DNA from: Coleofasciculaceae cyanobacterium
GTDB taxonomy: Bacteria; Cyanobacteriota; Cyanobacteriia; Cyanobacteriales; Xenococcaceae
Assembly: GCA_036703275.1 (NCBI GenBank)
Contig: DATNPK010000060.1
Coordinates: 1-64,000, forward strand
Reading direction: 5' to 3'
Length of the DNA: 64,000 nt
Shown here: positions 12,032 through 28,833 of the stretch, one piece after another
Numbering within the stretch: the stretch's first letter is position 1
Layout: every line of letters begins with the position of its first letter
The notes under the pieces: model-generated
The model's input: only the letters and a program-made list of their open reading frames with translations
What the model was told of the DNA's origin: nothing
Database searches by the model: none
Made by a program: the position numbers and the translations under genes

Positions 12032-12159
12032 GGGTTTGCTACTCCTTATCTATCTAAATTACTAGAAACTATGTGAACAATTGTACTATTTATCAGCCGG
12101 ACTTTCATCCCACTAATTGTAGTGGCAGTTTTTAAGTAAACGGTACTCCGACTTCCGGG

Positions 12160-14673
12160 CTAACTTTGTTCGTGATCGATAAAACTTTGGACTCGCTGAC
12201 GATATTCAGCCAGTTGCCGATCTACCCAGTAGCGCTCGCCACTGTTGGCATAAATATGGATTAGTGGTTCACCCGCATCCGGCAAAATTAATACCCAGTT
12301 ATCATTTTGCGGATTAAATATTTTTACGCCGTCAATTAACTCCAAATTTTCTGGAGAATGAGTTTCTACCAAATAACGCATCAAAGAGCCTTTAACTTTC
12401 CAAGGACAGCGAATCGAGCAAGATTTATAATAAACATTTGGTAAATCATGACGAATATCGGCCAGCGATCGCTCTTGAATTGTTAGCATTTCGATCAGTT
12501 TGGCAATGCTAAACATAGCGTCAAAACCAGGATGGAGTTGAGGAAAAATAAAGCCCATATCGCTACTACCTCCTAACACTACATGAAGATTATTCTGGGC
12601 CGCTGCCATTAATGCTGTCGGATTGACTTTCGTGCGAATCACTTTCCCATCATGACGACGAGCAATTTCTTCTACTGCACTAGAAGCATTGACGGGAACT
12701 ACTACCGTGCTGCGAGGATGAGCCGTAAAAATAGTATTAACCATCAAAGCTGTCAAAGCTTCATCGCGAATTGGCAAACCCGCCTCATCCACCAAAATAA
12801 ATTGTTCTCCGTTAGCAGATACCTGCACGCCAAAATTGGCTTTTAGAGCTTCAACTACTTGACCCAATTGATCCAACAGCACTTCTTTTTGGTTGGCAGA
12901 AATAGCAGTTTCTTTTAAGCTGGCATTTAACACCACTGCATCACAGCCAAACTTGACTAAAAGCTGGGGTAAAATTGCTCCAGCTACGGCATACACATAA
13001 TCAATGACAATTTTAGAACTGCTGCTACGAACGGCTTCTATATTGACGTGTTTTTCAAAAGCACGACTATAGGTATCTAAAATGCCACTAGGATAACTAA
13101 CGCTACCAATTTCTTGAACCGACACTCGGCGCAAGTCCTCTTTAAAATAAGCTCCTTCAATCTTTTTTTCTTGAGATTTAGAAATGCTGATTCCCTGTTT
13201 ATCAAAAAATTCAATTAATAAATAATCAGGTCGATTAGGTTCTAAACGAATATGAATCCCGCCTGACACATCTACCATGTGGGTCATCATGGCACGGGCA
13301 ATGGGAATAGCAGTTGCTTCTAAATTTTGCACGTTGATTCCCGCCGACATCAATCCAGAAATAATAGCTCTACCAAGCATACGGGAGACGCTGCGTTGAT
13401 CGCGAGAGACAATGACTGTCGAATCAAGCTTGAGGGTTGAACCATAAGAAGCACCCAGCTTGACGACAAACTCAGGGGTTAGATCGATGTTAGCCAGTCC
13501 CGATACGCCCCGTTGTCCAAAAAGATTACGTTGGGCTGTATTACCCCAAATTAAATTGATATTAAGTATTGCTCCAGATTCAATTCTTTTACTCGGCCAA
13601 ACTCTAACTCCTGGTGCAATTTGAGCTTCTTCTCCGACGATAGACAAGCTACCAATCACCGAACCTTCTAAAGCCTGCGATCGCCGATCCATTCTCGTAC
13701 CACGAGAGATTATGCAGGCACGTAAATGAGCCTCATCTCCTACTGTAGCTCCATTCCAGATAATAGGTCGCTTGAGGTTAGCATCCGAGCCAACGGTAAC
13801 ATTATCACCAATTACTGTTCCAGCTTCGATCTTGACCCGCGCTCCAATACGACAATTATTGCCAATCATAGCTGGTGTTTCAATGACCGCACTAGGATCG
13901 ACATAAGTATTGTTGCCAATCCAAATTCCCGCCGACTTCTGTTTATAGGGAAAATCCAGCTTAACTTTCTGGTCTAATCCGTCATACTGAGCTTCACGGT
14001 AGGCTTCTAAATGACCGACATCACACCAGTAACCTTCGGCAACATAGCCATACATTGGTTCTTGCTTTTCTAGCAATAAAGGGAACAAATCCTTGGAAAA
14101 ATCTGACTCCTGATTTTCTGGGAGGTAATCGAGAACTTCTGGTTCGAGAATATATGTACCTGTGTTGACCGTATCCGAGAAAATTTCACTCAGGGAAGGC
14201 TTTTCTAAAAAGCGCTCGATCTTCCCCTCTCGGTCGGTAATTACTACGCCAAACTCTACAGGGTTAGGTACGCGAGTCAAAATTAAGGTTGCTTTGGATT
14301 TTTTCTCACGATGAAAAGCGATCGCAGCTTGCAGGTCAAAATCCGTAATCGCATCCCCGCTAATGGTGACAAAAGTGTCATCTAACCACTGCTGAATATT
14401 TTTAACACATCCTGCTGTTCCTAATGGCTGCTCTTCTTCCACCGCATAGGTCATTTGTACTCCAAAGTCGCTACCGTCTTGAAAATAATCCCGCATCACA
14501 TCGGGAAGATAGTAAAGAGCAGCAATAACCTCAGTAATATTATGACGTTTTAGCAAATTGATGATGTGTTCGGCTATAGGACGGTTTAGCACGGGTACCA
14601 TTGGTTTGGGCAGATCGCAGGTTAATGGGCGCAATCTAGTCCCTGAACCACCAGCCATTAGCACTGCTCGCAT
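12160..14673 (-). CDS. Mannose-1-phosphate guanylyltransferase-like nucleotidyltransferase / degenerate phosphomannomutase fusion
   Basis: Residues 1-230 form a nucleotidyltransferase with the signature MAGGSGTRLRPLT and the substrate motif GDAITD. Residues 240-370 are a left-handed beta-helix (repeated GxxxxIG hexapeptides). Residues 385-835 have the phosphohexomutase fold. In that last domain the phosphoserine loop (TASHNP in active mutases) reads IHIRLEPNRPDY and the metal loop (DGDADR) reads SANGEQF, so the mutase part looks inactive. Two adjacent ATGs exist; the second (14673) is six bases from AGGAG and is preferred. It likely supplies GDP-mannose or another NDP-sugar for surface polysaccharide, or is regulatory. 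Confidence 0.85.
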   Translation of the reverse strand: MRAVLMAGGSGTRLRPLTCDLPKPMVPVLNRPIAEHIINLLKRHNITEVIAALYYLPDVMRDYFQDGSDFGVQMTYAVEEEQPLGTAGCVKNIQQWLDDTFVTISGDAITDFDLQAAIAFHREKKSKATLILTRVPNPVEFGVVITDREGKIERFLEKPSLSEIFSDTVNTGTYILEPEVLDYLPENQESDFSKDLFPLLLEKQEPMYGYVAEGYWCDVGHLEAYREAQYDGLDQKVKLDFPYKQKSAGIWIGNNTYVDPSAVIETPAMIGNNCRIGARVKIEAGTVIGDNVTVGSDANLKRPIIWNGATVGDEAHLRACIISRGTRMDRRSQALEGSVIGSLSIVGEEAQIAPGVRVWPSKRIESGAILNINLIWGNTAQRNLFGQRGVSGLANIDLTPEFVVKLGASYGSTLKLDSTVIVSRDQRSVSRMLGRAIISGLMSAGINVQNLEATAIPIARAMMTHMVDVSGGIHIRLEPNRPDYLLIEFFDKQGISISKSQEKKIEGAYFKEDLRRVSVQEIGSVSYPSGILDTYSRAFEKHVNIEAVRSSSSKIVIDYVYAVAGAILPQLLVKFGCDAVVLNASLKETAISANQKEVLLDQLGQVVEALKANFGVQVSANGEQFILVDEAGLPIRDEALTALMVNTIFTAHPRSTVVVPVNASSAVEEIARRHDGKVIRTKVNPTALMAAAQNNLHVVLGGSSDMGFIFPQLHPGFDAMFSIAKLIEMLTIQERSLADIRHDLPNVYYKSCSIRCPWKVKGSLMRYLVETHSPENLELIDGVKIFNPQNDNWVLILPDAGEPLIHIYANSGERYWVDRQLAEYRQRVQSFIDHEQS

Positions 14674-15040
14674 CATAATCTCCTAATATATTGGGGTTTA
14701 TTTTTATTCTCTTTTTATATACTTGTATTTTATTACTATTGAGTCTGCTGATTTGGCTTTAGCTCAGGAGAAGCTTAAATTTAGTAGAAAAATTGGTTTG
14801 ATTTAAAAGTTAATTGTTAAGACAATTTTTAGCTGGTCAAAAATTAGAAAATAAATTACCGCTTGATTCAAAATAACCCATGCCACATTGTTTTTTTTTA
14901 GCTTGTATTTAGAGAGTACTATTAAACAAAAGTTAATCTAACACAGCCAAAAAAATTGAGTTGTTAATTCCTCAAGAAGAAAATTCGACAATTGCTAGAA
15001 TAATAGGTGTTGTTGGTTTATTGAGATAGTAAAGGTAGAG
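14674..15040. other. 367-bp AT-rich intergenic region between divergent genes
   Basis: No gene, tRNA or convincing hairpin was seen. It must contain the promoters of the divergent sugar-nucleotide gene and the small-protein gene at 15041. No individual -10 or -35 box is strong enough to claim. Confidence 0.5.
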
Positions 15041-15235
15041 ATGCCACAGTTTATTGGTTTTGTACTATTCGTTGTTTATGTCGGTGGAATTTGGAAGTTT
15101 TTATCAGGATACCGTCGCACTAACTTTAATGCTGGTCTATCTGGAAAAATCACCCTCGCTTTATTATGGCCAGTATTATTGATTGGCAATAAATCCTATC
15201 GTCGCAATTTCCGCAAGGCTTTGAGAGGGAGATAA
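15041..15235 (+). CDS. Small conserved single-helix membrane protein
   Basis: A 64-residue basic protein with one hydrophobic helix at 4-20 and a second, shorter hydrophobic patch at 35-48. A C-terminal Arg/Lys-rich tail (SYRRNFRKALRGR) should face the cytoplasm. It resembles small hypothetical proteins conserved among cyanobacteria; I know no function. AGGTAGAG lies just upstream of the ATG. It sits 38 bp ahead of cobK, so may be co-transcribed. Confidence 0.65.
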   Translation: MPQFIGFVLFVVYVGGIWKFLSGYRRTNFNAGLSGKITLALLWPVLLIGNKSYRRNFRKALRGR

Positions 15236-15273
15236 GCTACAAACCTTTTCTGATTAGCACAGATAAATTTCTG

Positions 15274-16044
15274 ATGAATGGTAAAGTCTTGCTAATTGGT
15301 GGAACTAGCGACAGTGCAGCCATAGCCGCAATGTTGGCTGCCTTCAATATACGGTTTGTCGTAACAGTAACTACCATAACTGCTCGCTCTTTGTACTCTT
15401 CCACCGTTGCCATAGTAGTTGAGCGTATGGATCGCTCAAGAATGCAGTTTTTCTGTCAGCAAAATCAAATTCAAGCTGTAGTTGATGCTTCCCATCCCTA
15501 TGCAGTTGAGGTTTCGCGTCAGGCGATCGCCATTTGCACTCAGCTAAATCTTCCTTATCTACGTTACGAAAGAGTTAATTATCAAGCTTCAGCCGTCGCT
15601 CAAACCGACTCTTTTCTAATGAAATTAAATAGTTTTGACCAACTTCTAGCAGGTGATTATTTAACCAAACAGAGGGTATTTTTGACCGTTGGTTGCCAAA
15701 TATTACCCCGATTCAAATCTTGGCAAAATCGAGCTACTCTATATGCCAGAATATTACCCAAAATAGCGTCTTTAGAAACGGCTATAGCCGCTGGGTTTAC
15801 TGGCGATCGCCTGATTGCTATTCGCCCTCCGATTAGCGTGGCGACAGAAACAGCTTTATGGCAGCAATGGAAAATATCTTTAGTCGTAACTAAGGCATCA
15901 GGAAAAGCAGGGGGAGAAGACATCAAACATCAGGTAGCAAAGGATTTAGGTATTCCTTTAATCGTTATTGCTCGTCCTCAGATTACCTATCCGCAACAAA
16001 CTTCAGAAATTAAAGATGTATTGGCTTTTTGCCAAGCAATTTAA
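15274..16044 (+). CDS. cobK: Precorrin-6A (cobalt-precorrin-6A) reductase
   Basis: A 256-residue CobK/CbiJ enzyme that reduces precorrin-6A with NADPH in corrin-ring synthesis for cobalamin. The N-terminal VLLIGGTSDSAAIA dinucleotide-binding turn, VVDASHPYAVEVS (about 69-81) and the late TKASGKAGGEDIKHQVA motif are typical. No other cobalamin genes are adjacent and no cobalamin riboswitch was seen in the 38-bp spacer. Complete. Confidence 0.9.
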   Translation: MNGKVLLIGGTSDSAAIAAMLAAFNIRFVVTVTTITARSLYSSTVAIVVERMDRSRMQFFCQQNQIQAVVDASHPYAVEVSRQAIAICTQLNLPYLRYERVNYQASAVAQTDSFLMKLNSFDQLLAGDYLTKQRVFLTVGCQILPRFKSWQNRATLYARILPKIASLETAIAAGFTGDRLIAIRPPISVATETALWQQWKISLVVTKASGKAGGEDIKHQVAKDLGIPLIVIARPQITYPQQTSEIKDVLAFCQAI

Positions 16045-16176
16045 AAATTAGATTTTCCACAGTTTAATCTTTCATGTCTAGGTATTTTTCCCTAAACAAA
16101 GGTTAAGATACAGAAAATACTCATATCTCTCCATTAAGAATTTAGTTAATAAAATTTGCTCGACTCCAGCTTGAAG

Positions 16177-16836
16177 ATGAAAATCAAACATCCCATCAAT
16201 TTGCACAAATTCCTGACCTTTGCCTTCGTTTTAGGCTTAATGGTTATATATCAAAATTTTACTGTAGCTCCTTGGATATATCTCTCACTTCACGGAACTT
16301 ATGGCATTATGTGGCTAATTAAAGATCGTCTGTATCCCGATCGCCAGTGGGAATCAGAAATACCAACCATTATGGGAATTGTAATCTTTGCTGTGCTGGG
16401 ATTATATTGGGTTGCACCCTTTATTTTAATTAGTAGTGGAGTACAGTCTAGCGCACCTTTGATGGCAGCAGCGATCGCTACGAATCTCTTGGGAATATTA
16501 CTGCATTACGGTAGCGATGCCCAAAAATACTTTACGCTCAAATATAACTCAGGATTAATTACCGAAGGATTCTTTAGCCGTAGCCGTAATCCTAACTATT
16601 TAGGAGAGATTTTGATCTATCTCGGTTTTGCGATGTTGGCGCAGCATTGGCTTCCTTTCGTGATTTTAGGCTTAGTTGCGGCTTCAGTTTTTGTGCCAAA
16701 TATGCTGAAAAAAGATCGATCTCTAGCTCGCTATCGTGAGTTTGCTGCCTATAAAGAACGTTCTGGTTTACTATTACCCAAGCTGTTTGTTAATCAATCA
16801 GCAGAAACAGTAGCAGAAACTATTGAAGTTAATTAA
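16177..16836 (+). CDS. Isoprenylcysteine-methyltransferase-like / DUF1295-type membrane protein
   Basis: A protein of about 219 residues with five or six hydrophobic segments. FSRSRNPNYLGEILIYLGF (about 149-167) is the RxPxYxGE-type motif shared by ICMT, PEMT and steroid-reductase-like membrane enzymes, where it binds S-adenosylmethionine or NADPH. I start at ATG 16177 (MKIKHPINLHKF) instead of the upstream in-frame TTG at 16156. The substrate is unknown. It ends near a HIP1 inverted repeat. Confidence 0.72.
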   Translation: MKIKHPINLHKFLTFAFVLGLMVIYQNFTVAPWIYLSLHGTYGIMWLIKDRLYPDRQWESEIPTIMGIVIFAVLGLYWVAPFILISSGVQSSAPLMAAAIATNLLGILLHYGSDAQKYFTLKYNSGLITEGFFSRSRNPNYLGEILIYLGFAMLAQHWLPFVILGLVAASVFVPNMLKKDRSLARYREFAAYKERSGLLLPKLFVNQSAETVAETIEVN

Positions 16837-16866
16837 AAAGTTGCATAATGATTTAGATCGAGACAA

Positions 16867-16912
16867 TGGCGATCGCAACTAAAGATTGAAATATTGACTC
16901 AAGCGATCGCCA
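16867..16912. terminator. HIP1 inverted repeat between convergent genes
   Basis: Perfect 10-bp arms TGGCGATCGC (16867-16876) and GCGATCGCCA (16903-16912) separated by 26 bases. It lies between the methyltransferase-like gene and the convergent split gene at 16991-17491. Terminator function is inferred from position; there is no T-run. Confidence 0.4.
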
Positions 16913-16990
16913 GTATTACAGGCACATTATTAAATTATTTGCTGTTGTATTTAGTCTCTAAAAAGCCTAGAATCTTTAGCTTTTGACTTC

Positions 16991-17491
16991 TTAACAGTGG
17001 GTGACTTTGGCTGAACTTAATGTTACCCAGTAAGTTATATCATCTTTAGTAATCCTTTCCTTTTGTTGTTGTTCAATTTCGCTAGCAGCCCTGCGAGCAT
17101 TGTGTAGTTGCGGAAACAAGTTTTGTAAAAAGAAATTAACTGTATTCGGTTTAATTAACCCTTGTTTAACAGCAGTGTCTCCAAAACTTAGTGAATGCCT
17201 GTGTTGTTCAGAAAGTATGATGCCAATATCTTCTTCACTCAATAATCCTGCTTTATTCAAATAAAATCCGATAGGATGTTCTATTCTTTGATTAACCAAC
17301 TTAAATTATTCTTGAACAAAGAAATCGGCAGTATCTTGTTTGATCCATCCTCTTAAGGCTAAGATTTCCCCTAGTCGCATATCTTGATAATAGTTTTGAT
17401 CTCTAAGAGCGACCTCTAGCTGCGGACTAGTAATTAGATCGGCTTCTTGTAAAATTTCGCCAATCGGCTTAAAGGTAACAAATTTAGACAT
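16991..17491 (-). pseudogene. MshEN/GspE-N-like two-module protein split by an in-frame TAA
   Basis: Two consecutive frames on the minus strand are in register. From ATG 17491 the protein reads MSKFVTFKPIGEILQEADLI and ends FFVQE-stop at 17306. Five residues later it continues with VNQRIEHPIGFYLNKAGLL to 16991. Each half holds one helical module of the type PxGxxLxxAGLI...RxGEIxxxRGxI, similar to N-terminal modules of type II secretion/pilus ATPases (MshEN) and common as stand-alone pairs in cyanobacteria. The stop (17306-17308) lies where Gln would fit (VQE-Q-FKLV). It may be a true nonsense, or two short peptides may be made; the second half has only a TTG near its start. Confidence 0.6.
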
Positions 17492-17649
17492 TATAAGTAT
17501 CAAAAAAGCAGTATATATAAAAGATTTATTAAGATTTATAATTAGTTCTAAAATAACTGATGATTGATTGAATTGGGTAAAGTTCAGCGCAAAAATAAGC
17601 TTTGTCTGAACGGACAAAATTGCTCTTATTTTCAACTTGAAACATTAGC

Positions 17650-18504
17650 CTATTTGGTTAAATAAACAGCATGATGCTCGATATGTTCCTTTATAAAACT
17701 ACTAACTGTAAAGTAGCTGTGATCGTATCCCGATTGCCATCGTAAATTAAGATTTTGTCCGACTTGTTGACAAGCAGCTTGGAAAGTTTCGGGCAATAAT
17801 TGTTTTTGTTGATAAAATTGATCGTCAGTTCCTTGGTCGATCAAAATTGTCGAGTTTAGCTGAGTATGCTTAATTAACTCACTAGCGTCATATTCTGCCC
17901 AGTTTTGGCGATCGCTGCCTAAATAGGCGGTAAATAGTTTGTTTCCCCAGGGACATTGCATCGGTGCTGCTATTGGTGCGAAGGCAGATACTGATAAATA
18001 TTGCTGAGGATTTTTTAAAGCGCAAATTAAGGCACCATGTCCTCCCATCGAATGTCCAAAAATACTTTGTTTTTCAGGATTAACTGGAAAATTAGCAGCA
18101 ATCAAGCCAGGTAATTCTTGGGTAACGTAGCTATACATCTTGTAATGCTTTTGCCAAGGATCTACCGTAGCATCTACATAAAAACCTGCGCCACTGCCCA
18201 AATCCCAAGTTTCATCTTCTCCAGGTATTCCCGTGTTGCGCGGGCTAGTATCAGGCACGACGAGCATAATACCCAATTCGGCTGCATATTTTTGTGCGCC
18301 AGCTTTAGTAATAAAATTGTCCTCGGTACAGGTTAAGCCAGATAGATAATAGAGAATAGGCATTGACTGAGAAGACGGTGTTTGAGGCGGAAGATAGACT
18401 GCAAAATTCATCTTACAGTTACAGGTAGATGATTGATGTGAGTAATAGGCAACTGTACCATCGAAACAGCGGTATTCGGACTTGAGGTTTAAATAATCGG
18501 ACAT
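17650..18504 (-). CDS. S-formylglutathione hydrolase
   Basis: A 284-residue alpha/beta-hydrolase of the esterase D family that hydrolyses S-formylglutathione in formaldehyde detoxification. [17 protein letters not shown] (about 53-69), [21 protein letters not shown] (about 87-107) and the nucleophile elbow [10 protein letters not shown] (Ser about 151) are diagnostic. The Asp (DQGTDDQF) and His (YDHSYF) of the triad follow. No partner formaldehyde dehydrogenase is adjacent. Complete. Confidence 0.93.
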
Positions 18505-18627
18505 GGTATTTTGGTAAATTGGGTATCAATAAAATTATCTGACGTTTAATGATTGATTACAATATGAGCGATCAATTCAATAAATTCAATATTTTCAGCT
18601 TGAGCATTACTAAAATAAGTTAAATAT

Positions 18628-21087
18628 TTGAAACCAATTAATCCATGGGACTTTGTAGTTATCGATACTGAAGGGCAAAGAGAAATACGAGAAATTGCGA
18701 TCATCAACGCTGAAGGCAAATTAATCTATGAAGCTTTTAATTGTGAGCATCCTAATGGTCTAGATCGCGGCGTATTAAGTAAATCACTCAAGATTATTCT
18801 TTTAGACTTCAAAGCAATTGTTCATCATAAAATACTTGTGTTTCATCATGCTAGTCACGACCTTCAAGTATTAAAAAAGAGCTTCCAAAAAGTTAATCTA
18901 TCCTGGCAAGATTTTAACCAAGTACATTGCACCTATAAATTAGCTAAAGAATTTTTTCCTCATTACTATTCTTATTCATTAGAATACCTTGCTAAAAAGC
19001 TAAATTTAAAAGTAGATCGTCAGTACTTTGATCGTGGAAAAGCTCATCTAGCCCGATATGATGCTCAGTTTACCTACCAAATCTATATAACAATTAAGCG
19101 GAAAATGACTTTAACATCCCTAGTAAATAATCCTTTTGGCAGTAGTCGTGTCGATAATCCTTTTCAAAGCCATCCAGACAACATCAATATTTATCGCGAT
19201 CAGTACACCACCTTAGAAGCGGTAATTGACGATATTAAATGCGATCAAAATCATCAAAGTAAAGGTGCAGTAATTATCGGTAAGCCTGGGACTGGCAAAA
19301 CCCATTTAATTATGCGTTTAGCTCAACAAAGATTGAAGCTCAATCGCTTGTTATTTATTCCTTGTCCTAATGATGCTGGCACAATTAAATATCATACTTA
19401 TAGCTGTATTTTAGAATCTTTAAACAAGAACATACCAGGCACAAAATTTAATCAATTAGAGTATTTTTTGGCAAATACCTTTGTTAGCATCATCAAGTCG
19501 AGTAATAATAAGACTCAAAAAATAAAAACCATTTTAGACAATATTGAAAACCATCCTCTTTTGCTTTACGAAATGTTAGGCCAAGAAGGTACTGAAAAGA
19601 GAAGAAAAAACTGGGACTATATTGAAAAATATACTAATGACTGGTGGCTCAAAAAATATGGTGCTGCGGGCTATGCGCCAGAAATTATTAAGGGTATAGT
19701 TAAATTCTGTCGCTACTGTGATCTCAACTATAAACAGTTAGTAAAAAAATGGTTGGCTGCGGATGAATTAGAAGCAGAAGAATTAACTAAAATTGGCTTA
19801 AGTAGCTGGCATGATGAGATTAGCAAAGAAGATTTTTCAATCGATGCGATCGCAGTTTTAGGCAAACTATCTTTGTTACATGAACCGTTAATTATGGTTT
19901 TTGACCAGCTAGAAATGCTGGGATTAGAACATAACCGCAGTATTTTGCTCAATTTTGGGGAAGCGCTCAAAGAAATTTTTACTAGAGTTCCTCATAGTCT
20001 AATTGTCTTTAATTTATTTCCCAATCGCTGGCAACAGCTACAGCAAATTTTTGATGGCTCAATTATCGACCGTATTGCTCAATACCAACTGTTTTTAGCA
20101 CCGCCAACAACGGAAGAAATTCAGGAAATTTTACAGTTAAAAGCAACAGAAGCGGGGACAGATTTAACCAGTTTGTTTACGACTCAGGAACTCGAACAAA
20201 TTATTGGCGATCGCCATTCTATACGTACAGTTTTAAATCATGCTGCGGCATATTTTCGCTATAAATATCAGAATATCCCTTTACCAGATCGCAAAAGCGA
20301 TGTTGCTGACTCAGAAAACAAAGTAACTCTATCAGCAATTGACTCTAGATTAGACAAGCTAGAATCTCAGCAAAATCGATTAGAACGGTTACTTACAAAT
20401 ATTGCTCAAGCGTTAAATGTTTTTACTCATAACACACAAGAGAATCAATTACTCAGCAATCTTAGCTACACACCGCAAGTAAATTCAGCCAAACCTGCTG
20501 CCAAATTTGCAAAGTCTTTAGAAGAAAAAGTTAAAAATTATCTAGATACTCAGCAAACCATACTGGAACAAAATTATCATGAGACGGAAATTCTGCTCGA
20601 CGAAAAGGATATTGGTAAATTACAGGATATTATCGAAGCCTTTAAAAAAATATTCGAGCTAGAAACAGATGTTTTTCCGACTAAGCAAGTTCTACCACCT
20701 CACCGAATTATAATCAATAAAAATCTTTGTATTGGTTTCTTAAGTAGCTGCAAAGGAAGCAAGTTCACCTCAAGAATTCAAAATTACAACGAATTAATCG
20801 CAACCAAAGAACAAATGAGATTTCTACTATGGCGTGATGATCGAAGCGATCCGATTAAACCCAAAACAGTAGGAAGTAGAGAAATAGACAAACTTGAAAA
20901 TACCAAGAATGGAGAATTTAAACAGTTTGAGCGCGATAATCGAATTACTTTTGAACTAATTTATAAATTTATTAGCGATGTCTATAATCAGGATCTAGAA
21001 ATAGATCTTGATACGCAGTTTAAATCTGCACTTAAAATAGTGGCAGATTACTTTCAAGATTATTGGTTGATCGAAGAACTACATTGA
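18628..21087 (+). CDS. DEDDh exonuclease fused to a P-loop (STAND/AAA-like) ATPase
   Basis: An 819-residue protein. Residues 8-165 are a DnaQ-like exonuclease: D13-T-E15, D78 (HASHDLQVL) and H140-x4-D145 supply a complete DEDDh set. After a short linker, Walker A is GKPGTGKT (218-225) and Walker B is VFDQLE (D426). Residues about 490-555 look like the sensor/lid end of an ORC/STAND-type ATPase, followed by a coiled coil (about 573-600) and an unrecognised charged C-terminal domain (about 640-819). The start is TTG at 18628; a stop lies four codons upstream in frame. I do not know a named family with this order; roles in repair or phage defence are inference. Its last 50 bases overlap a startless frame on the other strand. 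Confidence 0.8.
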   Translation: MKPINPWDFVVIDTEGQREIREIAIINAEGKLIYEAFNCEHPNGLDRGVLSKSLKIILLDFKAIVHHKILVFHHASHDLQVLKKSFQKVNLSWQDFNQVHCTYKLAKEFFPHYYSYSLEYLAKKLNLKVDRQYFDRGKAHLARYDAQFTYQIYITIKRKMTLTSLVNNPFGSSRVDNPFQSHPDNINIYRDQYTTLEAVIDDIKCDQNHQSKGAVIIGKPGTGKTHLIMRLAQQRLKLNRLLFIPCPNDAGTIKYHTYSCILESLNKNIPGTKFNQLEYFLANTFVSIIKSSNNKTQKIKTILDNIENHPLLLYEMLGQEGTEKRRKNWDYIEKYTNDWWLKKYGAAGYAPEIIKGIVKFCRYCDLNYKQLVKKWLAADELEAEELTKIGLSSWHDEISKEDFSIDAIAVLGKLSLLHEPLIMVFDQLEMLGLEHNRSILLNFGEALKEIFTRVPHSLIVFNLFPNRWQQLQQIFDGSIIDRIAQYQLFLAPPTTEEIQEILQLKATEAGTDLTSLFTTQELEQIIGDRHSIRTVLNHAAAYFRYKYQNIPLPDRKSDVADSENKVTLSAIDSRLDKLESQQNRLERLLTNIAQALNVFTHNTQENQLLSNLSYTPQVNSAKPAAKFAKSLEEKVKNYLDTQQTILEQNYHETEILLDEKDIGKLQDIIEAFKKIFELETDVFPTKQVLPPHRIIINKNLCIGFLSSCKGSKFTSRIQNYNELIATKEQMRFLLWRDDRSDPIKPKTVGSREIDKLENTKNGEFKQFERDNRITFELIYKFISDVYNQDLEIDLDTQFKSALKIVADYFQDYWLIEELH

Positions 21088-21139
21088 TTGCTATCGGTGA
21101 CCAACTGCATCTAAACTGCGATCGAGTTAAACAATCTAA

Positions 21140-21349
21140 TCTATCTGTTTGCGAACCGTCTTTGGCATTTACTTTTGGCACAATATCGGGACGTTCCATG
21201 TTTTCCCAACCCGCAGGGCGTTTAGAATTATACCAAGCAACTGAACCTATAGTTACAGCCGCTAAAAAACCGACTACGTAAACTGCAACGAAATAAGTAG
21301 GGAATTCTGCCGCTACTGCAAATAGTAAACTTATAGCAAATAAATAATT
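21140..21349 (-). pseudogene. Startless small single-helix protein, resembling a photosystem II-associated subunit
   Basis: The minus strand reads an open frame from a TGA at 21350 with the core FPTYFVAVYVVGFLAAVTIG followed by SVAWYNSKRPAGWENMERPD and IVPKVNAKDG. One hydrophobic helix followed by a basic tail ending in a PDxVPK motif recalls small cyanobacterial thylakoid proteins (the Psb35/Ssl2148 type comes to mind, unverified). No ATG, GTG or TTG precedes the helix: the likely start position reads ATA. The frame also overruns into the 3' end of the ATPase gene. I call it a remnant with a lost start codon; use of a non-standard start is the alternative. Confidence 0.45.
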
Positions 21350-21666
21350 TCAGCTTGATAGTGTCGCAATTTTAAGCCGAGGGACGCGGCGGTTTCTTGC
21401 GCTTGTCCAATCGGCTGGTTAAGAAGTGATTTTAAATTGATTTTTATTCCTTCTTCTACGGAAGATTTTTGTCTCCCACTAGCGGAGGCTTTGTACTTTA
21501 GCGATCGCCTTGTCTGCTCGGATATTCCAATTTTTCGAGAAATAACTAAATAACTAAGTGCTGAAAAATATTATTAAAGATCGCTGCTAAATGTCGCCAA
21601 CGAAATTCGGTCTAAAATATTTTATAGTTGTTTTTTTAAAATAGTCAGCCGATAACTTAACTTTAC
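21350..21666. other. Gap with a startless open frame of unknown origin
   Basis: No complete gene. On the minus strand a frame of about 80 codons without a start runs from about 21570 to 21331, containing ISRKIGISEQTRRSLKYKAS and LLNQPIGQAQETAASLGLKL. The first part has a helix-turn-helix look. The frame overlaps the small-protein remnant at its end. This is probably residue of a decayed gene. Confidence 0.3.
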
Positions 21667-21885
21667 TCAATTAAGATTCTCAGTTGATAAAGAATTTAAA
21701 CTAATTACCAAAGGGATCGCAACTAAGCATAATTTAAGTATCCAAGGCGCACAAAATAGAGTTAACAAAGAAAAGGCTATAGAGGTAAATCGCATCCCAG
21801 CTTTAAAAACATCGTCATCTATTTTAGAACTTATGTATAGTGCGATCGCAGCAACGAACAGAGTCACCAGTGAAAGGGTGAGCAT
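21667..21885 (-). CDS. Small two-helix membrane protein
   Basis: A 72-residue protein with hydrophobic segments at about 2-18 and 34-63, separated by the charged turn SSKIDDDVFKAGMRF. Its composition and the turn resemble small hypothetical proteins conserved in cyanobacteria. The ATG is followed by a clean frame and an AATAAGAGGAATAATA-type leader supplies a ribosome-binding site. Function unknown. Confidence 0.6.
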   Translation of the reverse strand: MLTLSLVTLFVAAIALYISSKIDDDVFKAGMRFTSIAFSLLTLFCAPWILKLCLVAIPLVISLNSLSTENLN

Positions 21886-22105
21886 TTTATTATTCCTCTT
21901 ATTATTTAGATAGTGGTGTCTTTGCCGTTGTCAAAAACCGAGCTTCGCTTCAATCTTACTGTTACGACTGGCTATAAAATTTAAACGGTCATTAACCCTA
22001 ATATTAAGATATTATAACTTCCAATTTTTTTGTCAATATATAAGTATAACTAAACAATTAAAGTAAAGATTTAATTTAGATCGCTGTTTAGTGCAACAAC
22101 GCCAA

Positions 22106-24118
22106 TTACTTAGTAATTTCTGACCGCGGAAACTGGGGAACGAGTGAGGGATAACGCTCTAGCCAAGCTTGACAAGCAGAGCGCAATTCTTCCCTTTCTT
22201 CAAGGCTAAGACCTTGAGGATCGAAACGGTAGCGATAATGCATGGTAATAATCCTATTTAGCCCATCAAATATAGCTGAATTGTCTGAGATATTTTGTAG
22301 CCGTTGTAGCCAATCTTGCCAAGTTTCAGCGCGATCGCGAATCAGCCCTAATTTATTTAATTCCTGTTCGATTAGATAAATCTCTGAGTCTTCACCGACA
22401 GCTAATTCAGCAGATTCTTTTGGTTTAATTCGCAAGGCGGTTAATTGTCTTTTGTGTCCCTGGCGGGTAAACTGCCGAACCAAAATAAACGCTAAGGGGA
22501 AGACAAACCACCACAGATATTTAAGTCTGCCCATGTTGCCAATTATTGCTAATATTTGGGAAAATTTAAACTGAATTAGCGATCCCAAGTCTTGTAGATA
22601 TTGCCAATTAGAGGTCGCATTATCTTCGATCGCCACCCAGGAAGAGGGAGTAGTATCAAAAGCCTGCCATTGACCATCAAGATATACCTGCGTCCAAGCA
22701 TGAGCATGGCGATCGCGCACAATATATTGTCTCTCTAAAGAGCTTAATTCGTGAACAGAATAACCAACGGCGTAACGAGTCGGAATACCTACACCTCGCA
22801 ATAACAAGGTGGTAGCAGTAGCAAAATATTCACAGTGTCCCGAACGATGGCGCAAAAGGAATGCAGATAACGGAGTTTGATTGCTACGCCGTCGTGCTAA
22901 TTCCAAAGAATAGTTAAACTCCTGGCTAAAAAACCGCTGAACAATGTTTAAGACTTCCTGGGGTGATTTATCTGTTAGTTCTAAATCGCTGATGATAGTC
23001 GCGATCGCAGGCTGCTCTTGGTCTATTATTTGTAAATCCGCTGCTGTAGGAGGACTATCTACAGACAACTTGGGATCGTATTGCACCCGATAAGACAACC
23101 AAGTCGATTCAGCCATCACCTGCACTGTACCATATTGATTTTGCTCAATTTTTGCTGCGGGTAGTTGAGTTATTTGAAAACTACCCTCGGGAAGCTTGAT
23201 TAAACCTTGACTATCAGCTAAATTTTCACTAATAGTTACTTCTTTCTCCTGGGAAGACTTCTGATTGAGAATCCAGGTATTTTCAGCTTGTCCTGGTTTG
23301 ATGGGGGTAAATTTTGCCTGAGTCGCTCCCCAAAACCCTGAAGAATATTTATTGTATGTAGCTCGTCGAATTAAACTTGGTGCAGGTTGCTGGAGTGAGG
23401 GTTTGAGACGCAAAACAATCTTATTTGACTGTTTGACTGAGCCAAGATCGCCAATAGCAGTACTAACCTGATTGGGATCGGTTTGAGGACGATAAAAACG
23501 GTAGAACAACCTAGATGTGTTTTGTGCTAAAGATACTTGTAGATGATGTAGTCCAATATGTCCTATCTGCCCTAGAGCGATCGCTAATAGTATTAAACCC
23601 AAGAAGACTATAGTAGAAAATCTTTTCGATCTAATGGAAATAAGAACAGCACCAATTAAACTAACAGCAACAGCATAAAAAAACGAGTTTCGAACATTAG
23701 CGGCACTAGCAGCCAAGATACAAATAGCGAAATAGGGAAAAGTTAAGTTAAGAGGAAATAGCTGTTGTCGATCGCCTTTTTCTTGGAAGAACAACAGGGC
23801 ATGAAGATCGACGCGATCGCTTGTGGAATATGCTTGAGCAATTAACAAAGGCGCGCAAATTATCGGTAGCCACTGAAAGAAACTAAAGATTAGCTGCAAA
23901 GAGCGATCGCTTACCAATAGATAAATCAAGATCCCGATCAGCAATATTGTACAAATATGAGAAGTGGATCGGAAATCAGCCGTAGTTAGATTCCAGCGCC
24001 AGTTTATGTATCGTGAACCTTCGTAAGCGATCGCTAAGGGAATGGCAACAATCCAAAAACCTGTTTGCCAACCCCAAAATAAAATGGTTATGCCGAGCAA
24101 AAATGGTGGGAGGTTCAT
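22106..24118 (-). CDS. TgpA-type membrane transglutaminase-like protein
   Basis: A 670-residue protein: an N-terminal membrane domain with several helices (about 1-205, DUF3488/TgpA_N type), a periplasmic part with a transglutaminase-like core, one late helix (about 535-550) and a cytoplasmic tail resembling DUF4129. The papain-like triad is visible as Cys429 (SGHCEYFA), His473 (HAHAW) and Asp488 (FDTTPS). Genes of this type are commonly paired with DUF58 genes, as here, 28 bp apart and in the order DUF58-tgpA. The natural substrate is not established. Confidence 0.88.
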   Translation of the reverse strand: MNLPPFLLGITILFWGWQTGFWIVAIPLAIAYEGSRYINWRWNLTTADFRSTSHICTILLIGILIYLLVSDRSLQLIFSFFQWLPIICAPLLIAQAYSTSDRVDLHALLFFQEKGDRQQLFPLNLTFPYFAICILAASAANVRNSFFYAVAVSLIGAVLISIRSKRFSTIVFLGLILLAIALGQIGHIGLHHLQVSLAQNTSRLFYRFYRPQTDPNQVSTAIGDLGSVKQSNKIVLRLKPSLQQPAPSLIRRATYNKYSSGFWGATQAKFTPIKPGQAENTWILNQKSSQEKEVTISENLADSQGLIKLPEGSFQITQLPAAKIEQNQYGTVQVMAESTWLSYRVQYDPKLSVDSPPTAADLQIIDQEQPAIATIISDLELTDKSPQEVLNIVQRFFSQEFNYSLELARRRSNQTPLSAFLLRHRSGHCEYFATATTLLLRGVGIPTRYAVGYSVHELSSLERQYIVRDRHAHAWTQVYLDGQWQAFDTTPSSWVAIEDNATSNWQYLQDLGSLIQFKFSQILAIIGNMGRLKYLWWFVFPLAFILVRQFTRQGHKRQLTALRIKPKESAELAVGEDSEIYLIEQELNKLGLIRDRAETWQDWLQRLQNISDNSAIFDGLNRIITMHYRYRFDPQGLSLEEREELRSACQAWLERYPSLVPQFPRSEITK

Positions 24119-24146
24119 TTAAATAACTTAAGGATCAAATGTTTAG

Positions 24147-25484
24147 CTAATAATTTGATTGAATATTCATTAGTGCTGTTTGTATTTTGCCCATGGGTAA
24201 TATATATAAATTTTCTACATCTAAATTGCTAAACTGTTCGTCTTCAGTCAGCAACAAAACTAAAAGCGGAATATTAGATCCTTGCAGATGTTCAACTAAT
24301 TTCCTTCTCTCTTCGTCCCAACCAATCAAAATACAGATACAGCCGCTCAACATTGATGTTTTTTCAATTACCGCAGCCGTCAGGTAATCAAAAGTTTTAT
24401 CCTGACAAGCCGTAACCCCCGCCAAAATTTCTAGCATTTGTTCGCTGCTGCCCAAACCTCTTCCTGAAGTAAAGCAATAGGACTCTAAGCCGACAAACAT
24501 TAAATCTAATAATGATTCTTGGGTATCAAAGTCCCAGGCGAAAGATGCTGCTACAGAAACAGCTTCTTCGAGAATTTCACTTGGACTCTGAGCTGAAAAA
24601 GTATCTAAAATAAGTGCATGGCGGACAAAGTACTCGTTTTTTTCTTCTCTAACTACAGGCTTGCCTGTTTTTGCCCAGCTTTTCCAATGAATCTTACGTA
24701 GAGGATCTCCTGGACGATAATCCCGTAGAGCCACAAATTCTTCAGAGTCGCCAACGGAGAAAGCCAGACTCACGCTGCCCGATTGTGCCATTCTCGAGCC
24801 TGGTAGGTCAATCATGGGTAACTGATAACGTTGGGGTAGAACCAATAAAGACTGAGGTAAATTAATGGTTTTAGCAGCATTAAATAAATTAAACGGATCG
24901 GGGCGTAAAATACTAATTCCCGTCAGACGAATCGCACCTCTATGCGTGGGCGTAATTTCTGCTTTAATTTCCGTTGTACTTTGAGATTTCAAACTAGGTA
25001 AGGCGATCGCGCCTACCTTAGCCTTTTGTTTTTGGGAGATCGCTTTTAACCAATGAAGATAAATAAAGGTTAGAGAATTAATCGAGCCTTTCCGGCTAGC
25101 AGATTTGATGATTCGCTCAAACTCAACTAAGGTAAATTTAGGATGAGCAATTGCTTCTAAAAGTAGTAGGCCCGTCTGTATTTTTTGGCTGCGACTAGTA
25201 ATAGTAATTCGATAAAATAATTTAGAACCAACGGTTGCAAATCGCGGTAAACTTCGCTGCACTTCATAATGCTCGGGGAAATGAAAGCTATATATGACCG
25301 CAATAATTAAAACCGCTAATAAAAAAGTCAAAATTTGATACGCCATAGTTTGCTTCGTATCTAAACCAATAACTACAGTCGCTACCAGACAGACTAAAAT
25401 AGCCCAACCAGCAGGAGTAAAACGCTTTAGTAGCCACTGCTGTATTCTGTAGCCCAACCAAAACAGACGATAGAGAAATTTCAT
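24147..25484 (-). CDS. DUF58 domain protein
   Basis: A 445-residue protein with two N-terminal membrane helices (about 23-42 and 48-66) and the DUF58 core motif DYRPGDPLRKIHWKSWAKTG (about 258-277). A von Willebrand A-like fold follows (LILDT at about 293). It is first in the two-gene unit with the TgpA-like gene. DUF58/TgpA/MoxR groups are thought to act in envelope protein maturation or stress; no MoxR ATPase gene is adjacent here. Confidence 0.88.
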   Translation of the reverse strand: MKFLYRLFWLGYRIQQWLLKRFTPAGWAILVCLVATVVIGLDTKQTMAYQILTFLLAVLIIAVIYSFHFPEHYEVQRSLPRFATVGSKLFYRITITSRSQKIQTGLLLLEAIAHPKFTLVEFERIIKSASRKGSINSLTFIYLHWLKAISQKQKAKVGAIALPSLKSQSTTEIKAEITPTHRGAIRLTGISILRPDPFNLFNAAKTINLPQSLLVLPQRYQLPMIDLPGSRMAQSGSVSLAFSVGDSEEFVALRDYRPGDPLRKIHWKSWAKTGKPVVREEKNEYFVRHALILDTFSAQSPSEILEEAVSVAASFAWDFDTQESLLDLMFVGLESYCFTSGRGLGSSEQMLEILAGVTACQDKTFDYLTAAVIEKTSMLSGCICILIGWDEERRKLVEHLQGSNIPLLVLLLTEDEQFSNLDVENLYILPMGKIQTALMNIQSNY

Positions 25485-25883
25485 TTACCAAAAGTAAGTC
25501 ATTCACCAAAGCACCATCTTGGCACAGGTATTTCGAGTAGCGAGTTAATTTAAAAATTTAGCTATTTCTCAGGTTTTAGTTGGCTTCTCTTCAGCTAAAC
25601 CAGAGATCTTAAAGCTGACGAATACGACATTAAAAGTTCGGCAATCCACCTTTTAAATAGGTTTTTGCATAATTATTTTTGGTTCATCATAATAAGTAAG
25701 AGGCAATATTATCCTAGGCAATTAAACATTGCTTGAAGGTATTGAATTGTGGGTAGCTTAATCCCCAAAAAACTAGTTGAACCTTTGTCCCAGACTAAAC
25801 GTCTAAACACACAGTCGGATTCAAATTAGAAATTAAGAAGTATCGCTGACTTTTGAAGTTTATAAGGAGTCATAACTGTATAG
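25485..25883. other. 399-bp region between divergent DUF58 and sigma-factor genes
   Basis: No gene, tRNA or strong hairpin. It must carry the promoters of both divergent units. A ribosome-binding site AAGGAG lies at about 25863 ahead of the sigma-factor ATG. No promoter box is strong enough to call. Confidence 0.5.
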
Positions 25884-26867
25884 ATGCCTAAAGCCAACAT
25901 CGAAAAAACAACCCCTAAAAAAAACTACTCAGCAGATATGGTTAGAACTTATCTGCATGAAATTGGTCGGGTACCCTTGTTAACCCACGAACAAGAAATT
26001 GTCTATGGGAAGCAAGTACAGAAAATGATGATCCTGTTGACGGAAAAAGAAGAGTTAGAGAGTCAGTTAGAGACTACACTCAGCCTGAAGGAGTGGGCAA
26101 AAACTGCCCAAATGAGTGAAATTGAACTTAACAGGATTATTAGAGAAGGTCAAAGAGCCAAGAAAAAAATGATCGAGGCAAATTTGCGCTTAGTAGTGGC
26201 GATCGCCAAAAAATACCAAAAGCGCAATATGGAATTTCTCGATCTCATTCAAGAAGGTAGCCTTGGTTTAGAGAGGGGTGTAGAAAAATTCGATCCCACT
26301 AGAGGTTATAAGTTTTCTACTTATGCTTACTGGTGGATTCGTCAAGCTATCACCAGAGCGATCGCCCAACAGGCGCGTACCATTCGTTTGCCAATTCACA
26401 TTACTGAAAAGCTCAATAAAATTAAAAAAACTCAACGTGAACTGGCTCAACAGCTAGGACGTAGTGCAGAAGTAGCTGAAATTGCTCAAGAATTAGGTTT
26501 AGAAACTGAACAAATTCGCGAGTACTTAAGTATTGCCCGTCAGCCAATTTCTCTAGACGTTCGAGTCGGCGACAATCAGGATACTGAGTTATCAGAATTG
26601 CTCGAAGACGATGGACTTTCTCCTGACCACTATGCAACTCAGCAGCTATTGCGTAACGATTTATACAATTTGATGGCGGATTTATCTCCCCAACAACAAG
26701 AAGTTATTTCTTTACGCTTTGGTTTAGATGATGGCAAAGAGTTGTCTTTGGCTAAGATTGGTCAAAGAATGAGCTTGAGTCGCGAACGGGTACGTCAGTT
26801 AGAACATCAGGCTCTAGCACTACTCAGAAGACGTAGAAGCTATGTTAGAGAGTATATAGCTAGCTAA
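25884..26867 (+). CDS. Group 2 RpoD-like sigma-70 factor
   Basis: A 327-residue sigma factor lacking region 1.1. Region 1.2 is DMVRTYLHEIGRVPLLTHEQE; region 2 contains ANLRLVVAIAKKYQKRNMEF and the promoter-melting TYAYWWIRQAITRAIAQQ; region 4.2 ends with SRERVRQLEHQAL. Cyanobacterial group 2 factors (SigB, SigC, SigD, SigE) are non-essential and respond to light, heat, nitrogen or salt. The sequence is nearest the SigB/SigD type from memory, but the exact letter needs a tree. It precedes the ACP-synthase fusion by 325 bp. Confidence 0.9.
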   Translation: MPKANIEKTTPKKNYSADMVRTYLHEIGRVPLLTHEQEIVYGKQVQKMMILLTEKEELESQLETTLSLKEWAKTAQMSEIELNRIIREGQRAKKKMIEANLRLVVAIAKKYQKRNMEFLDLIQEGSLGLERGVEKFDPTRGYKFSTYAYWWIRQAITRAIAQQARTIRLPIHITEKLNKIKKTQRELAQQLGRSAEVAEIAQELGLETEQIREYLSIARQPISLDVRVGDNQDTELSELLEDDGLSPDHYATQQLLRNDLYNLMADLSPQQQEVISLRFGLDDGKELSLAKIGQRMSLSRERVRQLEHQALALLRRRRSYVREYIAS

Positions 26868-27192
26868 ATTTTCCAGATATTTTTTTCAATTACTGGCGAT
26901 CTCCACTAGTTTGTTATAAATTCGATCTATTAATTTATAGATCTGTATGTTGATAACAAAAGGTGAGGTCGCCATTATATTAATATTACCAACTAAGCAA
27001 TTTAAACTAACCCCTGCTGAATACTCTAGTATTTTGGTGGGGGTTCATGGCAGAATAACCATCGAGAGCGATCGTTTTGGCCTAGAAGGTGTCGGCTAGA
27101 CCAGAAAATCAACGACTCGAAGGAAATTCATTCTCTGGTGGGAGTTAAATTCTCTTCAGTGAATTTTTAATTAAGTGGTGTAGGAGTAAACA
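26868..27192. other. 325-bp structured leader region between sigma factor and synthase
   Basis: Two inverted structures are visible. An 81-bp outer pair lies at 26894-26974 (TGGCGATCTCCAC against GGTGAGGTCGCCA, two mismatches) with an inner pair GATCTAT/ATAGATC. A second, GGCCTAG...CTAGACC, lies at about 27078-27101. The first may end the sigma-factor transcript. The second lies in the leader of the synthase gene, whose GGAG-bearing ribosome-binding site is at about 27182. No gene is present. Confidence 0.5.
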
Positions 27193-28833
27193 ATGACACT
27201 ATTCAATGAAACTTTAAATGGCAAAGAAAGTAAAAACATTCCTGTCAACAGAAATGGTCAGAAAACTGCTCTTAGTGCTGCTTCTAAAGCCGAAGCAATA
27301 CAGGGCTGGTTGATTGACAAACTAGCAGAAGTATTAGAGATTGAGCCAAATCAAATTGATGTTGGACAAGATTTTGAAGAATATGGTTTAGAATCGGCTG
27401 AAGCAATTAACCTGTCTGGAGATTTAGAAGACTTTCTTGGTTGTCGTCTCCCACCTACCTTACTATGGGATTACCAAAATATTGAAGATCTAGCTCAATA
27501 TCTAGCCCATGGTAATTTAACTCAGATACAGGCTAATTCTAATCTAGAACTTAATTCTCCTGGGATAATTACGGATTTATCTCAAATATCTCAAATTAAT
27601 CTTGTCCAAGATTATCCCCCAGAAATACCTTTAGAAAACTATAAATTTGCCGAATTTCCTGAATATAAAAAACTATTAGCCCAACAAGAACAAGTTAAAA
27701 ATCTTGGTAATGGCAATCCGTTTTTTGTACCTCAAGAAACTATAGTTAACGATCGCACCACCATCAATGGTCGTGAATTGATTAATTTTGCTACTTATAA
27801 CTATATTGGGATGTGTGGCGACCCTCAAGTAAATCAAGCTGCAAAGGATGCCACCGAGCTTTATGGGACTTCTGCCTGTGCTAGTCGTTTAATCTCAGGA
27901 GAAAAACCCCTCCATCGAGAACTAGAACGAGAACTTGCCAATTTTATTGGTGTAGAAGACAGCATTATTATGGTGGGTGGTCATGCTACCAACGTGACCA
28001 CAATCGGTCATTTGTTTGGTAAGGATGATTTAGTTATTTATGATTCTCTAAGCCATAACAGTATTCTTCAGGGATGTTTTCTTTCTGGAGCAAGTTTAGT
28101 CGCTTTTCCTCATAATGACCTTGAAGCCTTGGAAAAAATTCTGAGCGATCGTCGTCATCGCTATCAGCGAGTTTTAATTGCGATCGAAGGAGTTTATAGC
28201 ACTGATGGTGATGTAGCAAATTTACCCCCTGTTATTAAGCTTAAACAAAAGTATAAAACCTTTTTAATGGTGGATGAAGCTCATTCTATCGGCACGATTG
28301 GCAAAACTGGTCGAGGTATTAGTGAATACTATGATATTAATCCCAATGATGTCGATCTTTGGATGGGTACTCTCAGCAAATCTTTTGCTAGCTGTGGAGG
28401 CTATATTGCTGGATCTTCAGCTTTAGTTGAATATTTAAAATATACCGCCCCTGGTTTTGTATTTAGCGTTGGCATGTCTCCGCCAAATACAGCAGCATCA
28501 TTAGCTGCGCTTCGCGTTCTTCAAGCAGAGCCAGAAAGAGCTACTATTCTTCAAGCGAGAGCCAAACTGTTTTTAAAATTAGCTAAAGAACAGGGTTTGG
28601 ATACAGGAATAAGCCAAGATTCGCCAGTGATTCCGATTATCGTGGGGGATTCTCTTAAATCGATTCAACTATCTCAAAATTTATTTAAGAGGGGAATCAA
28701 TGTTCCATTTATGATTTATCCTTCTGTACCTCAAAATGCTGCGCGATTACGATTTTTTATTACCTGCAATCATACGGTCGAGCAAATCTGCTTAACTATA
28801 AAGATTCTGGCTGAAGAGTTAAATAAACTATAG
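27193..28833 (+). CDS. Acyl-carrier-protein / alpha-oxoamine synthase fusion
   Basis: Residues about 34-118 form an acyl-carrier domain with the phosphopantetheine serine in GLESAEA (Ser68). Residues about 150-546 form a PLP-dependent alpha-oxoamine synthase, the family of serine palmitoyltransferase, KBL and BioF. The PLP lysine is K396 (TLSKSFASCGGY), with VDEAHSIG and the aldehyde-stacking ring region upstream. The expected reaction is decarboxylative condensation of an amino acid with the acyl chain held on its own carrier domain, giving an alpha-aminoketone. No acyl-loading or reductase gene is adjacent. Sigma-factor genes flank it on both sides. Product unknown. Confidence 0.88.
   Translation: MTLFNETLNGKESKNIPVNRNGQKTALSAASKAEAIQGWLIDKLAEVLEIEPNQIDVGQDFEEYGLESAEAINLSGDLEDFLGCRLPPTLLWDYQNIEDLAQYLAHGNLTQIQANSNLELNSPGIITDLSQISQINLVQDYPPEIPLENYKFAEFPEYKKLLAQQEQVKNLGNGNPFFVPQETIVNDRTTINGRELINFATYNYIGMCGDPQVNQAAKDATELYGTSACASRLISGEKPLHRELERELANFIGVEDSIIMVGGHATNVTTIGHLFGKDDLVIYDSLSHNSILQGCFLSGASLVAFPHNDLEALEKILSDRRHRYQRVLIAIEGVYSTDGDVANLPPVIKLKQKYKTFLMVDEAHSIGTIGKTGRGISEYYDINPNDVDLWMGTLSKSFASCGGYIAGSSALVEYLKYTAPGFVFSVGMSPPNTAASLAALRVLQAEPERATILQARAKLFLKLAKEQGLDTGISQDSPVIPIIVGDSLKSIQLSQNLFKRGINVPFMIYPSVPQNAARLRFFITCNHTVEQICLTIKILAEELNKL

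Follow-up and report, generated by a model that had tools for sequence, protein, structure and literature searches.

Orc/Cdc6-iREase-HerA/FtsK capture systems, as set out in passages of PMC10853773, are the described systems closest to the gene analysed here. They combine an Orc/Cdc6 ATPase, an inactive restriction endonuclease (iREase), an active restriction endonuclease (REase), a HerA/FtsK protein and a winged helix-turn-helix (wHTH) component, and sometimes also carry a multi-wHTH protein or a 3'-5' exonuclease fused to HerA/FtsK. In the same passages their counter-invader role is a prediction built on comparative evidence. A second point of reference is the BREX ATPase BrxD. We examined a stretch of 64,000 nucleotides (the window) of contig DATNPK010000060.1 from a Coleofasciculaceae cyanobacterium (GCA_036703275.1), in which one gene encodes both an exonuclease and an ATPase. 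This gene represents a real, uncharacterised family, a single-gene relative of the predicted Orc/Cdc6-centred counter-invader systems. We read it as a probable one-gene anti-invader nuclease of cyanobacteria and put the probability of this reading, which rests on sequence comparison, at roughly 0.55.

Results

A DEDDh exonuclease and an ATPase in one polypeptide

The catalytic set of DnaQ-like DEDDh exonucleases (D-x-E, D, H-x4-D) is complete in the window protein. Pfam RNase_T matches it with 33.1 bits against a cut-off of 24 (1e-07), and the nuclease domain is also matched by a PolC model (4.3e-14) and by the PADLOC model for CRISPR-associated DEDDh (8.2e-13). Its PDB profile matches are PolC and DnaQ chains, with RNase T and ISG20 among the weak ones. 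All Pfam ATPase models among the matches listed scored below their cut-offs (AAA_16, 23.1 against 32.6), no nuclease-fold REase model exceeded its Pfam cut-off, and the last 199 residues had no Pfam match. The probable coiled coil was judged by eye from the alignment; its one Pfam match, Nsp1_C, is weak.

An earlier note on this DNA had described an 819-residue open reading frame (ORF) starting with TTG, a DEDDh site, a P-loop from G218 to T225 and an ATPase residue D426. All of these were recovered at those positions, D426 lying within a Walker B motif that runs from F425 to E429. The TTG start is plausible because the aligned codon is ATG in two relatives (L032 and L005). The note's nuclease-ATPase fusion beside housekeeping-type genes was likewise borne out. 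By reading of the ORFs, an S-formylglutathione-hydrolase-like gene of opposite orientation lies upstream, and a transglutaminase-like gene about 1 kb downstream. The note had held that a named family covering the full domain order would refute its proposal; none of the Pfam, NCBIfam and PADLOC matches listed spans the whole protein.

The catalytic residues are conserved and the gene is under purifying selection

We aligned 54 sequences, the window protein included, after removal of two duplicate loci. D13, E15, D78 and H140 are present in 50 rows and D145 in 49, while the Walker A glycine and lysine (K224) are found in 51 rows and the FDQxE motif (D426) in 52. The remaining rows have gaps at these positions and zero substitutions. 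The conservation of the DEDDh and Walker motifs is not due to chance. Of the six incomplete rows, three are fragments (L041, L113 and L119), one has no Walker B (L085) and two have no nuclease (L081 and L083). Ratios of non-synonymous to synonymous substitution (dN/dS) were 0.104-0.167 for the whole gene in five pairs, the nuclease-free pair included, and 0.058-0.193 by domain in four pairs, where one C-terminal value was unmeasurable owing to saturated synonymous sites. These values indicate that the gene is under purifying selection.

Several homologues depart from the common domain order. L081 (5173-7098) and L083 (8504-10429, minus strand) encode an open 641-amino acid protein made of the ATPase and the C-terminal part without the nuclease, with a dN/dS of 0.145. 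This suggests that the ATPase and the C-terminal domain do something useful alone in these two loci, perhaps binding or blocking. A swap of the nuclease for another effector was considered there and rejected, as the upstream gene reads as a transporter-like membrane protein. L085 (8118-9713, minus strand) is a 531-amino acid version with the nuclease and Walker A, in which the greater part of the ATPase is missing together with Walker B. A divergent homologue in L118 (8486-10816) has a very long tree branch and a BLAST match to window residues 9-544 only; its C-terminal part may have been replaced.

The ATPase is related to BrxC/BrxD-like ATPases through an intermediate family

The earlier note had called the ATPase a STAND/AAA ATPase. 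In order to place it, we compared a profile of the window family's ATPase and C-terminal part (A6) with a profile of ATPases encoded in cyanobacterial operons (A5) and with a BrxD profile built from PF10923 matches (A4). Alignment of A6 with A5 in hhalign gave a probability of 99.8 over 547 columns, and the ATPase part alone gave 99.9 (E 4.6e-31, 343 columns). A search of the window's own genome with A5 returned the window gene as sole match (E 4.2e-16); PF10923 had no match in that genome. A5 in turn matches BrxD with a probability of 97.0, or 97.4 with a merged profile, and among the seven operon ATPases that were scanned, L022 alone exceeds the PF10923 cut-off (24.2 against 22.2 bits). The direct match between the window family and BrxD is weak (probabilities 7.8 and 13.7), with a score of 33.2 against a maximum of 21.3 in five column shuffles. 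As this direct match is weak and that of A5 to BrxD strong, the link to BrxD runs via the intermediate family A5. The similarity includes the WLxGexL and Walker B regions. Models of nSTAND proteins match all 18 members of alignment A1 at E up to 0.1 and are below cut-off in the window protein. By profile comparison, the ATPase appears better placed with the BrxC/BrxD-like ATPases of the Orc/Cdc6 clade than with STAND proteins, and the STAND label is therefore dropped.

The C-terminal region aligns with A5 collinearly but weakly (probability 15), scoring 26.9 against a maximum of 18.6 in ten column shuffles. It may correspond to the inactive-REase-like domain that the related ATPases carry.

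Most of the related ATPases are encoded in two types of operon

Each of the ten stretches around A5 ATPases holds a small protein of one cluster, adjoining or near the ATPase. In four of them, here type 1, the operon adds a large exonuclease-FtsK protein, composed of DNA_pol_A_exo1, PDDEXK_1, FtsK_alpha and FtsK_SpoIIIE in all three that were scanned. A YxxxD motif was found in all four large proteins read, which marks the exonuclease as DEDDy. Four other stretches, type 2, add a protein of 489-495 amino acids, with DUF1802 in both of two scanned. The last two (L128 and L129) encode two ATPases, without the large protein and without the 489-495-amino acid protein. Coordinates of both operon types and of the window features are given in Table 1.

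Table 1 Positions of the window gene, its domains and motifs, and the related operons
Feature	Sequence	Position	Strand	Basis
Whole gene, 819 amino acids, TTG start; DEDDh exonuclease - AAA+ ATPase - coiled coil - C-terminal domain	window	18628..21087	+	
DEDDh 3'-5' exonuclease domain, residues ~8-160 (D13, E15, D78, H140, D145)	window	18649..19107	+	profile matches
AAA+ ATPase domain, residues ~166-555, clade of operon ATPases in L121-L130	window	19123..20292	+	hhalign
Walker A GKPGTGKT, residues 218-225	window	19279..19302	+	
Walker B FDQLE, residues 425-429	window	19900..19914	+	
Probable coiled coil, residues 565-605, family consensus RLxxLExQQxxLxxLL	window	20320..20442	+	alignment reading
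C-terminal domain, residues 640-819; conserved GKL, NxN and RD motifs	window	20545..21084	+	
Type 1 operon: small protein, BrxD-linked ATPase, large protein	L121; L124; L127; L130	5159-10852; 5827-11305; 7718-13158; 4086-9496		
Type 2 operon: one or two ATPases, small protein, 489-495-amino acid protein	L122; L123; L125; L126	1245-7386; 11692-15703; 2629-7418; 8180-12414		

The type 1 operons seem to fit the 'HerA/FtsK capture' systems of PMC10853773, a match made by description and not through the paper's own sequences. The window protein shares with these predicted systems a homologous ATPase and a weakly similar C-terminal region, and passages of that paper indicate that a DEDD-superfamily 3'-5' exonuclease can belong to the machinery, as it does here. 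The window protein differs in being one polypeptide and in having a DEDDh (RNase_T type) instead of a DEDDy exonuclease; with DEDDy in the operons and DEDDh in the window, recruitment of the exonuclease therefore looks independent. By reading of the ORFs at 12000-28000, neither a HerA/FtsK nor an active REase was recognised, which places the window protein outside the Orc/Cdc6 capture systems. No wHTH match was found by Pfam in the last 199 residues, nor a wHTH neighbour. The FtsK-exonuclease partner had no match in the window's own genome at 1e-40. We rejected a dependence on this partner, since within the genus it occurs in G005 and G007 only, against 8 of 13 genomes for the window family.

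Two further observations concern the operon proteins themselves. The FtsK part of the large protein in L121 matches PADLOC SspH (3.2e-65), and one DUF1802 protein of the type 2 operons also weakly matches Mrr_cat. In the portions of the open-access literature covered, DUF1802 turned up in a single paper, on soil gene networks.

Other known systems resemble the window protein less. The same reading of ORFs at 12000-28000 recognised no BREX BrxC/PglX/PglZ core and no cas1 or cas2, and BrxD is described in part of PMC12839542 as a stand-alone ATPase, unlike the fusion found here. CRISPR-associated DEDDh and DnaQ/PolC exonucleases have only the nuclease domain in common with the window protein, which has no Cas or polymerase domain. 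The PADLOC candidate PDC-S48 matches the nuclease stretch 63-131 (4.2e-06, 69 of 411 profile positions) and leaves the ATPase and the C-terminal part unmatched. MrfAB and exonuclease-DinG likewise combine an exonuclease with an NTPase, but in the parts of the literature that describe them the partners are helicases, not Orc/Cdc6-clade AAA+ proteins.

The gene is patchily distributed, plasmid-borne in places and lost in a sister genome

Searches at 1e-10 found matches in 41 of 388 genomes of a class sample, fragments included, and in 35 of 386 genomes of an overlapping phylum sample, some of them again fragments; the one listed match in the latter that is marked as same phylum (G587) consists of the nuclease part alone. 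Among 60 relatives, 28 matched at 1e-3, distant ATPase matches included, and 19 at 1e-15 or better, the copy in one of these 19 (G020) being a stop-containing remnant. A narrow pattern scan, the one search of cellular genomes that extended outside the phylum, returned ten stretches and three relatives, all Pleurocapsa-like. Nine of 72,556 plasmid records match, all cyanobacterial, and in seven the coverage is 80% or more. They include near-copies of one S. elongatus plasmid, and the IITB3 and IITB5 records, of equal length and score, are probably one plasmid.

In a tree of 50 sequences, which has several long branches, the window family f1 forms a single clade (97/97), while families f48, f37, f49, f55, f14 and f56 each require two to three changes forced by strongly supported branches. 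Horizontal transfer of the gene is likely from the tree, although not proven case by case. The earlier note had likened the gene to transferred defence genes. Its patchy occurrence and its presence on plasmids of other cyanobacteria speak for this, but inside its own genus the picture given by the tree and a decayed copy resembles vertical descent followed by loss. The sister genome G012 keeps sequence on both sides of the locus, with 88% identity to the window over 934 bases upstream and 87% over 287 bases downstream, whereas the gene itself aligns over 55 and 227 bases only, at 76 and 67%. A remnant between kept flanks indicates loss rather than insertion, and hence that the gene is dispensable. 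A clean empty site in gene-free strains was sought as well and rejected, as the flanking genes are non-adjacent in both same-genus strains with full matches: about 0.86 Mb apart in G007 and on separate contigs in G008. The window's contig is 106 kb long, in an assembly of 5.62 Mb and 116 contigs.

Neighbouring genes on plasmids and elsewhere

Apart from the gene itself, each gene cluster is limited to at most 6 of the 56 stretches, so there is no constant neighbour. Next to the plasmid copies the genes differ from one plasmid to another, and most are of a defence type (DISARM, Thoeris, type IIG and candidate systems). DrmA, DrmB and DrmC together with a GmrSD_N protein lie upstream of the gene in L035, and HerA with an annotated NurA that has no PADLOC match lies upstream in L038. 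Downstream, HEC-05-like genes follow after 30-33 bp in L036 and L037, the former cut by a transposase, ThsB and ThsA start after 119 bp in L039, and a type IIG restriction-modification enzyme follows after 45 bp in L040. In L041, a PDC-S18 relative lies beside a 92-amino acid fragment of the gene. ParA genes adjoin the gene in L039 and L040. As a control, we took 41 genes of random segments from the same six plasmids. No Drm, Ths or type IIG name is among the 25 listed of their 83 PADLOC families, which do include HerA/DndH-like ATPases in three genes, single kinase- and TnpB-like matches and a few candidates. Three of the six gene-carrying plasmids also share an annotated trio of an ATP-binding protein, a metal-dependent hydrolase and a DUF87/T4SS-type ATPase (L184 4153-7303, L185 7553-10646, L186 7335-10404).

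For copies outside these plasmids, 144 flanking genes at 18 loci were compared with a control of 142 genes from 18 randomly chosen places on those contigs. Sixteen of the loci are on contigs of more than 2.7 Mb, i.e. chromosomes; the other two are on contigs of 0.18 and 0.985 Mb, whose chromosomal nature is unproven. At 1e-15, the flanks matched 143 PADLOC models and the control 86; these models are redundant and the test is coarse, as it considers 25 families of each set. The names among these 25 are in both sets ones that we take to be mainly kinase- and TnpB-like. BrxHI, MkoA and mad6 each have two members among the flanking genes listed, as do mad3 and PbeC among those of the control. One chromosomal neighbour (L111 11029-12561) reads as HsdM-like. 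In the window, two short adjacent ORFs of 102 and 109 amino acids (16991-17635) co-cluster with single genes of 167 and 171 amino acids near the homologue in L072 and L074; they are possibly two tandem genes or one broken gene.

Discussion

Judged from its sequence, the window protein carries a DEDDh site and a motif-complete ATPase in one chain, without a constant neighbour. Patchy occurrence between related species, together with a position beside defence genes on plasmids, makes a one-gene defence against foreign DNA the probable role. In such a system the ATPase would assemble on foreign DNA that is entering the cell or being replicated, held together by AAA+ and coiled-coil contacts, and the C-terminal domain may help to recognise this DNA. 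ATP-dependent assembly would then place or release the exonuclease, and degradation of 3' ends or strands would stop phages, plasmids or transforming DNA. A more specific form of this proposal falls slightly short of even odds. It holds that the cyanobacteria share a single-gene immune system not described before, in which an Orc/Cdc6-type ATPase and an inactive-REase-like reader direct a DEDDh exonuclease in cis onto invading DNA. The 'capture' machinery would thereby be condensed into one polypeptide with no translocase, and the proteins of L081 and L083 would be nuclease-free derivatives with a separate function.

Several results weigh against an anti-invader role. None of 50,697 phage records matches the gene, and viral contigs gave 23 pattern matches of which not one was confirmed. 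Since the nuclease-free proteins of L081 and L083 are kept, the nuclease is not the sole selected part. The direct similarity to BrxD is weak, and AlphaFold2 gave unusable models both for the full protein (four sequences, mean predicted local distance difference test score 36.4) and for the C-terminal 199 residues (three sequences, 46.7). Outside plasmids, the flanks have no clear excess of defence genes over random places, and their Pfam matches are led by ordinary enzymes, with Uma2 in three. The lone position, which the earlier note had taken as a sign of defence, is thus no evidence of a defence island, the chromosomal neighbours being mostly ordinary, and the defence association rests mainly on the plasmid copies. 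There the neighbours were hand-picked from annotation, and plasmids generally carry defence genes. The control segments, by annotation, include an N-6 methylase, a HEPN protein, a RelE toxin and an NB-ARC protein, and the plasmid contrast is therefore suggestive only.

The ordinary chromosomal surroundings, and the flanking genes that several relatives share with the window, would also suit an enzyme of DNA repair or of the replication fork, whose ATPase recognises damaged or stalled DNA and whose exonuclease trims 3' ends. The closest counterparts of the nuclease domain are the proofreading domains of PolC and DnaQ, and pairs or fusions of exonucleases with helicases have been described (MrfAB and exonuclease-DinG, in parts of PMC11194089, on repair, and PMC12345164). 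We regard this explanation as unlikely, given the 347 of 388 class genomes without a match at 1e-10, the decay in a sister genome, the copies on plasmids and the lack of a constant neighbour; a single repair pathway beside the homologues, which the earlier note had named as a sign against its proposal, was not seen among their neighbourhoods. Somewhat less probable again is a factor for the maintenance or competition of plasmids or other mobile elements that has also settled in chromosomes; such a factor would clear rival plasmids or process the ends of plasmids. At least 80% of the protein is present in seven plasmid records, two plasmid copies have the adjoining ParA genes, and Orc/Cdc6-clade ATPases also serve replication and transposition according to passages of PMC10853773. 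Yet 16 of the 18 loci compared are on contigs of chromosomal size, and no replication or partition gene is constant among the neighbours.

DEDD enzymes often act on RNA, and the weak profile matches include RNase T and ISG20. A role in RNA processing or decay, under an ATP-dependent regulator, is nevertheless the least probable of the alternatives and improbable in itself, since part of the related operons combine the ATPase with a DNA-translocase fusion and with nuclease domains of restriction type, and since the distribution is patchy.

The earlier note had also considered the architecture unfamiliar. The kind of ATPase is familiar from predicted counter-invader operons, but a single-protein DEDDh version was not found described. 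A DEDDh-Orc/Cdc6 single protein is not named in the open-access literature covered, as judged by titles and the start of abstracts. The text of PMC10853773, in the passages covered, does not describe one, though its Figure 7 or supplements may draw it, and the covered part of PMC12839542 contains neither 'DEDD' nor 'cyanobacteri'.

Should the anti-invader reading be true, photosynthetic bacteria would possess a compact immune protein. The roles of Orc/Cdc6-type ATPases in BREX and in HerA/FtsK capture systems are largely predicted, and the window family would offer a minimal setting for how these ATPases control a nuclease. As sensor, ATPase and effector lie in one chain, mutation of one gene is enough to alter any of them, and a direct test is possible in naturally transformable cyanobacteria.

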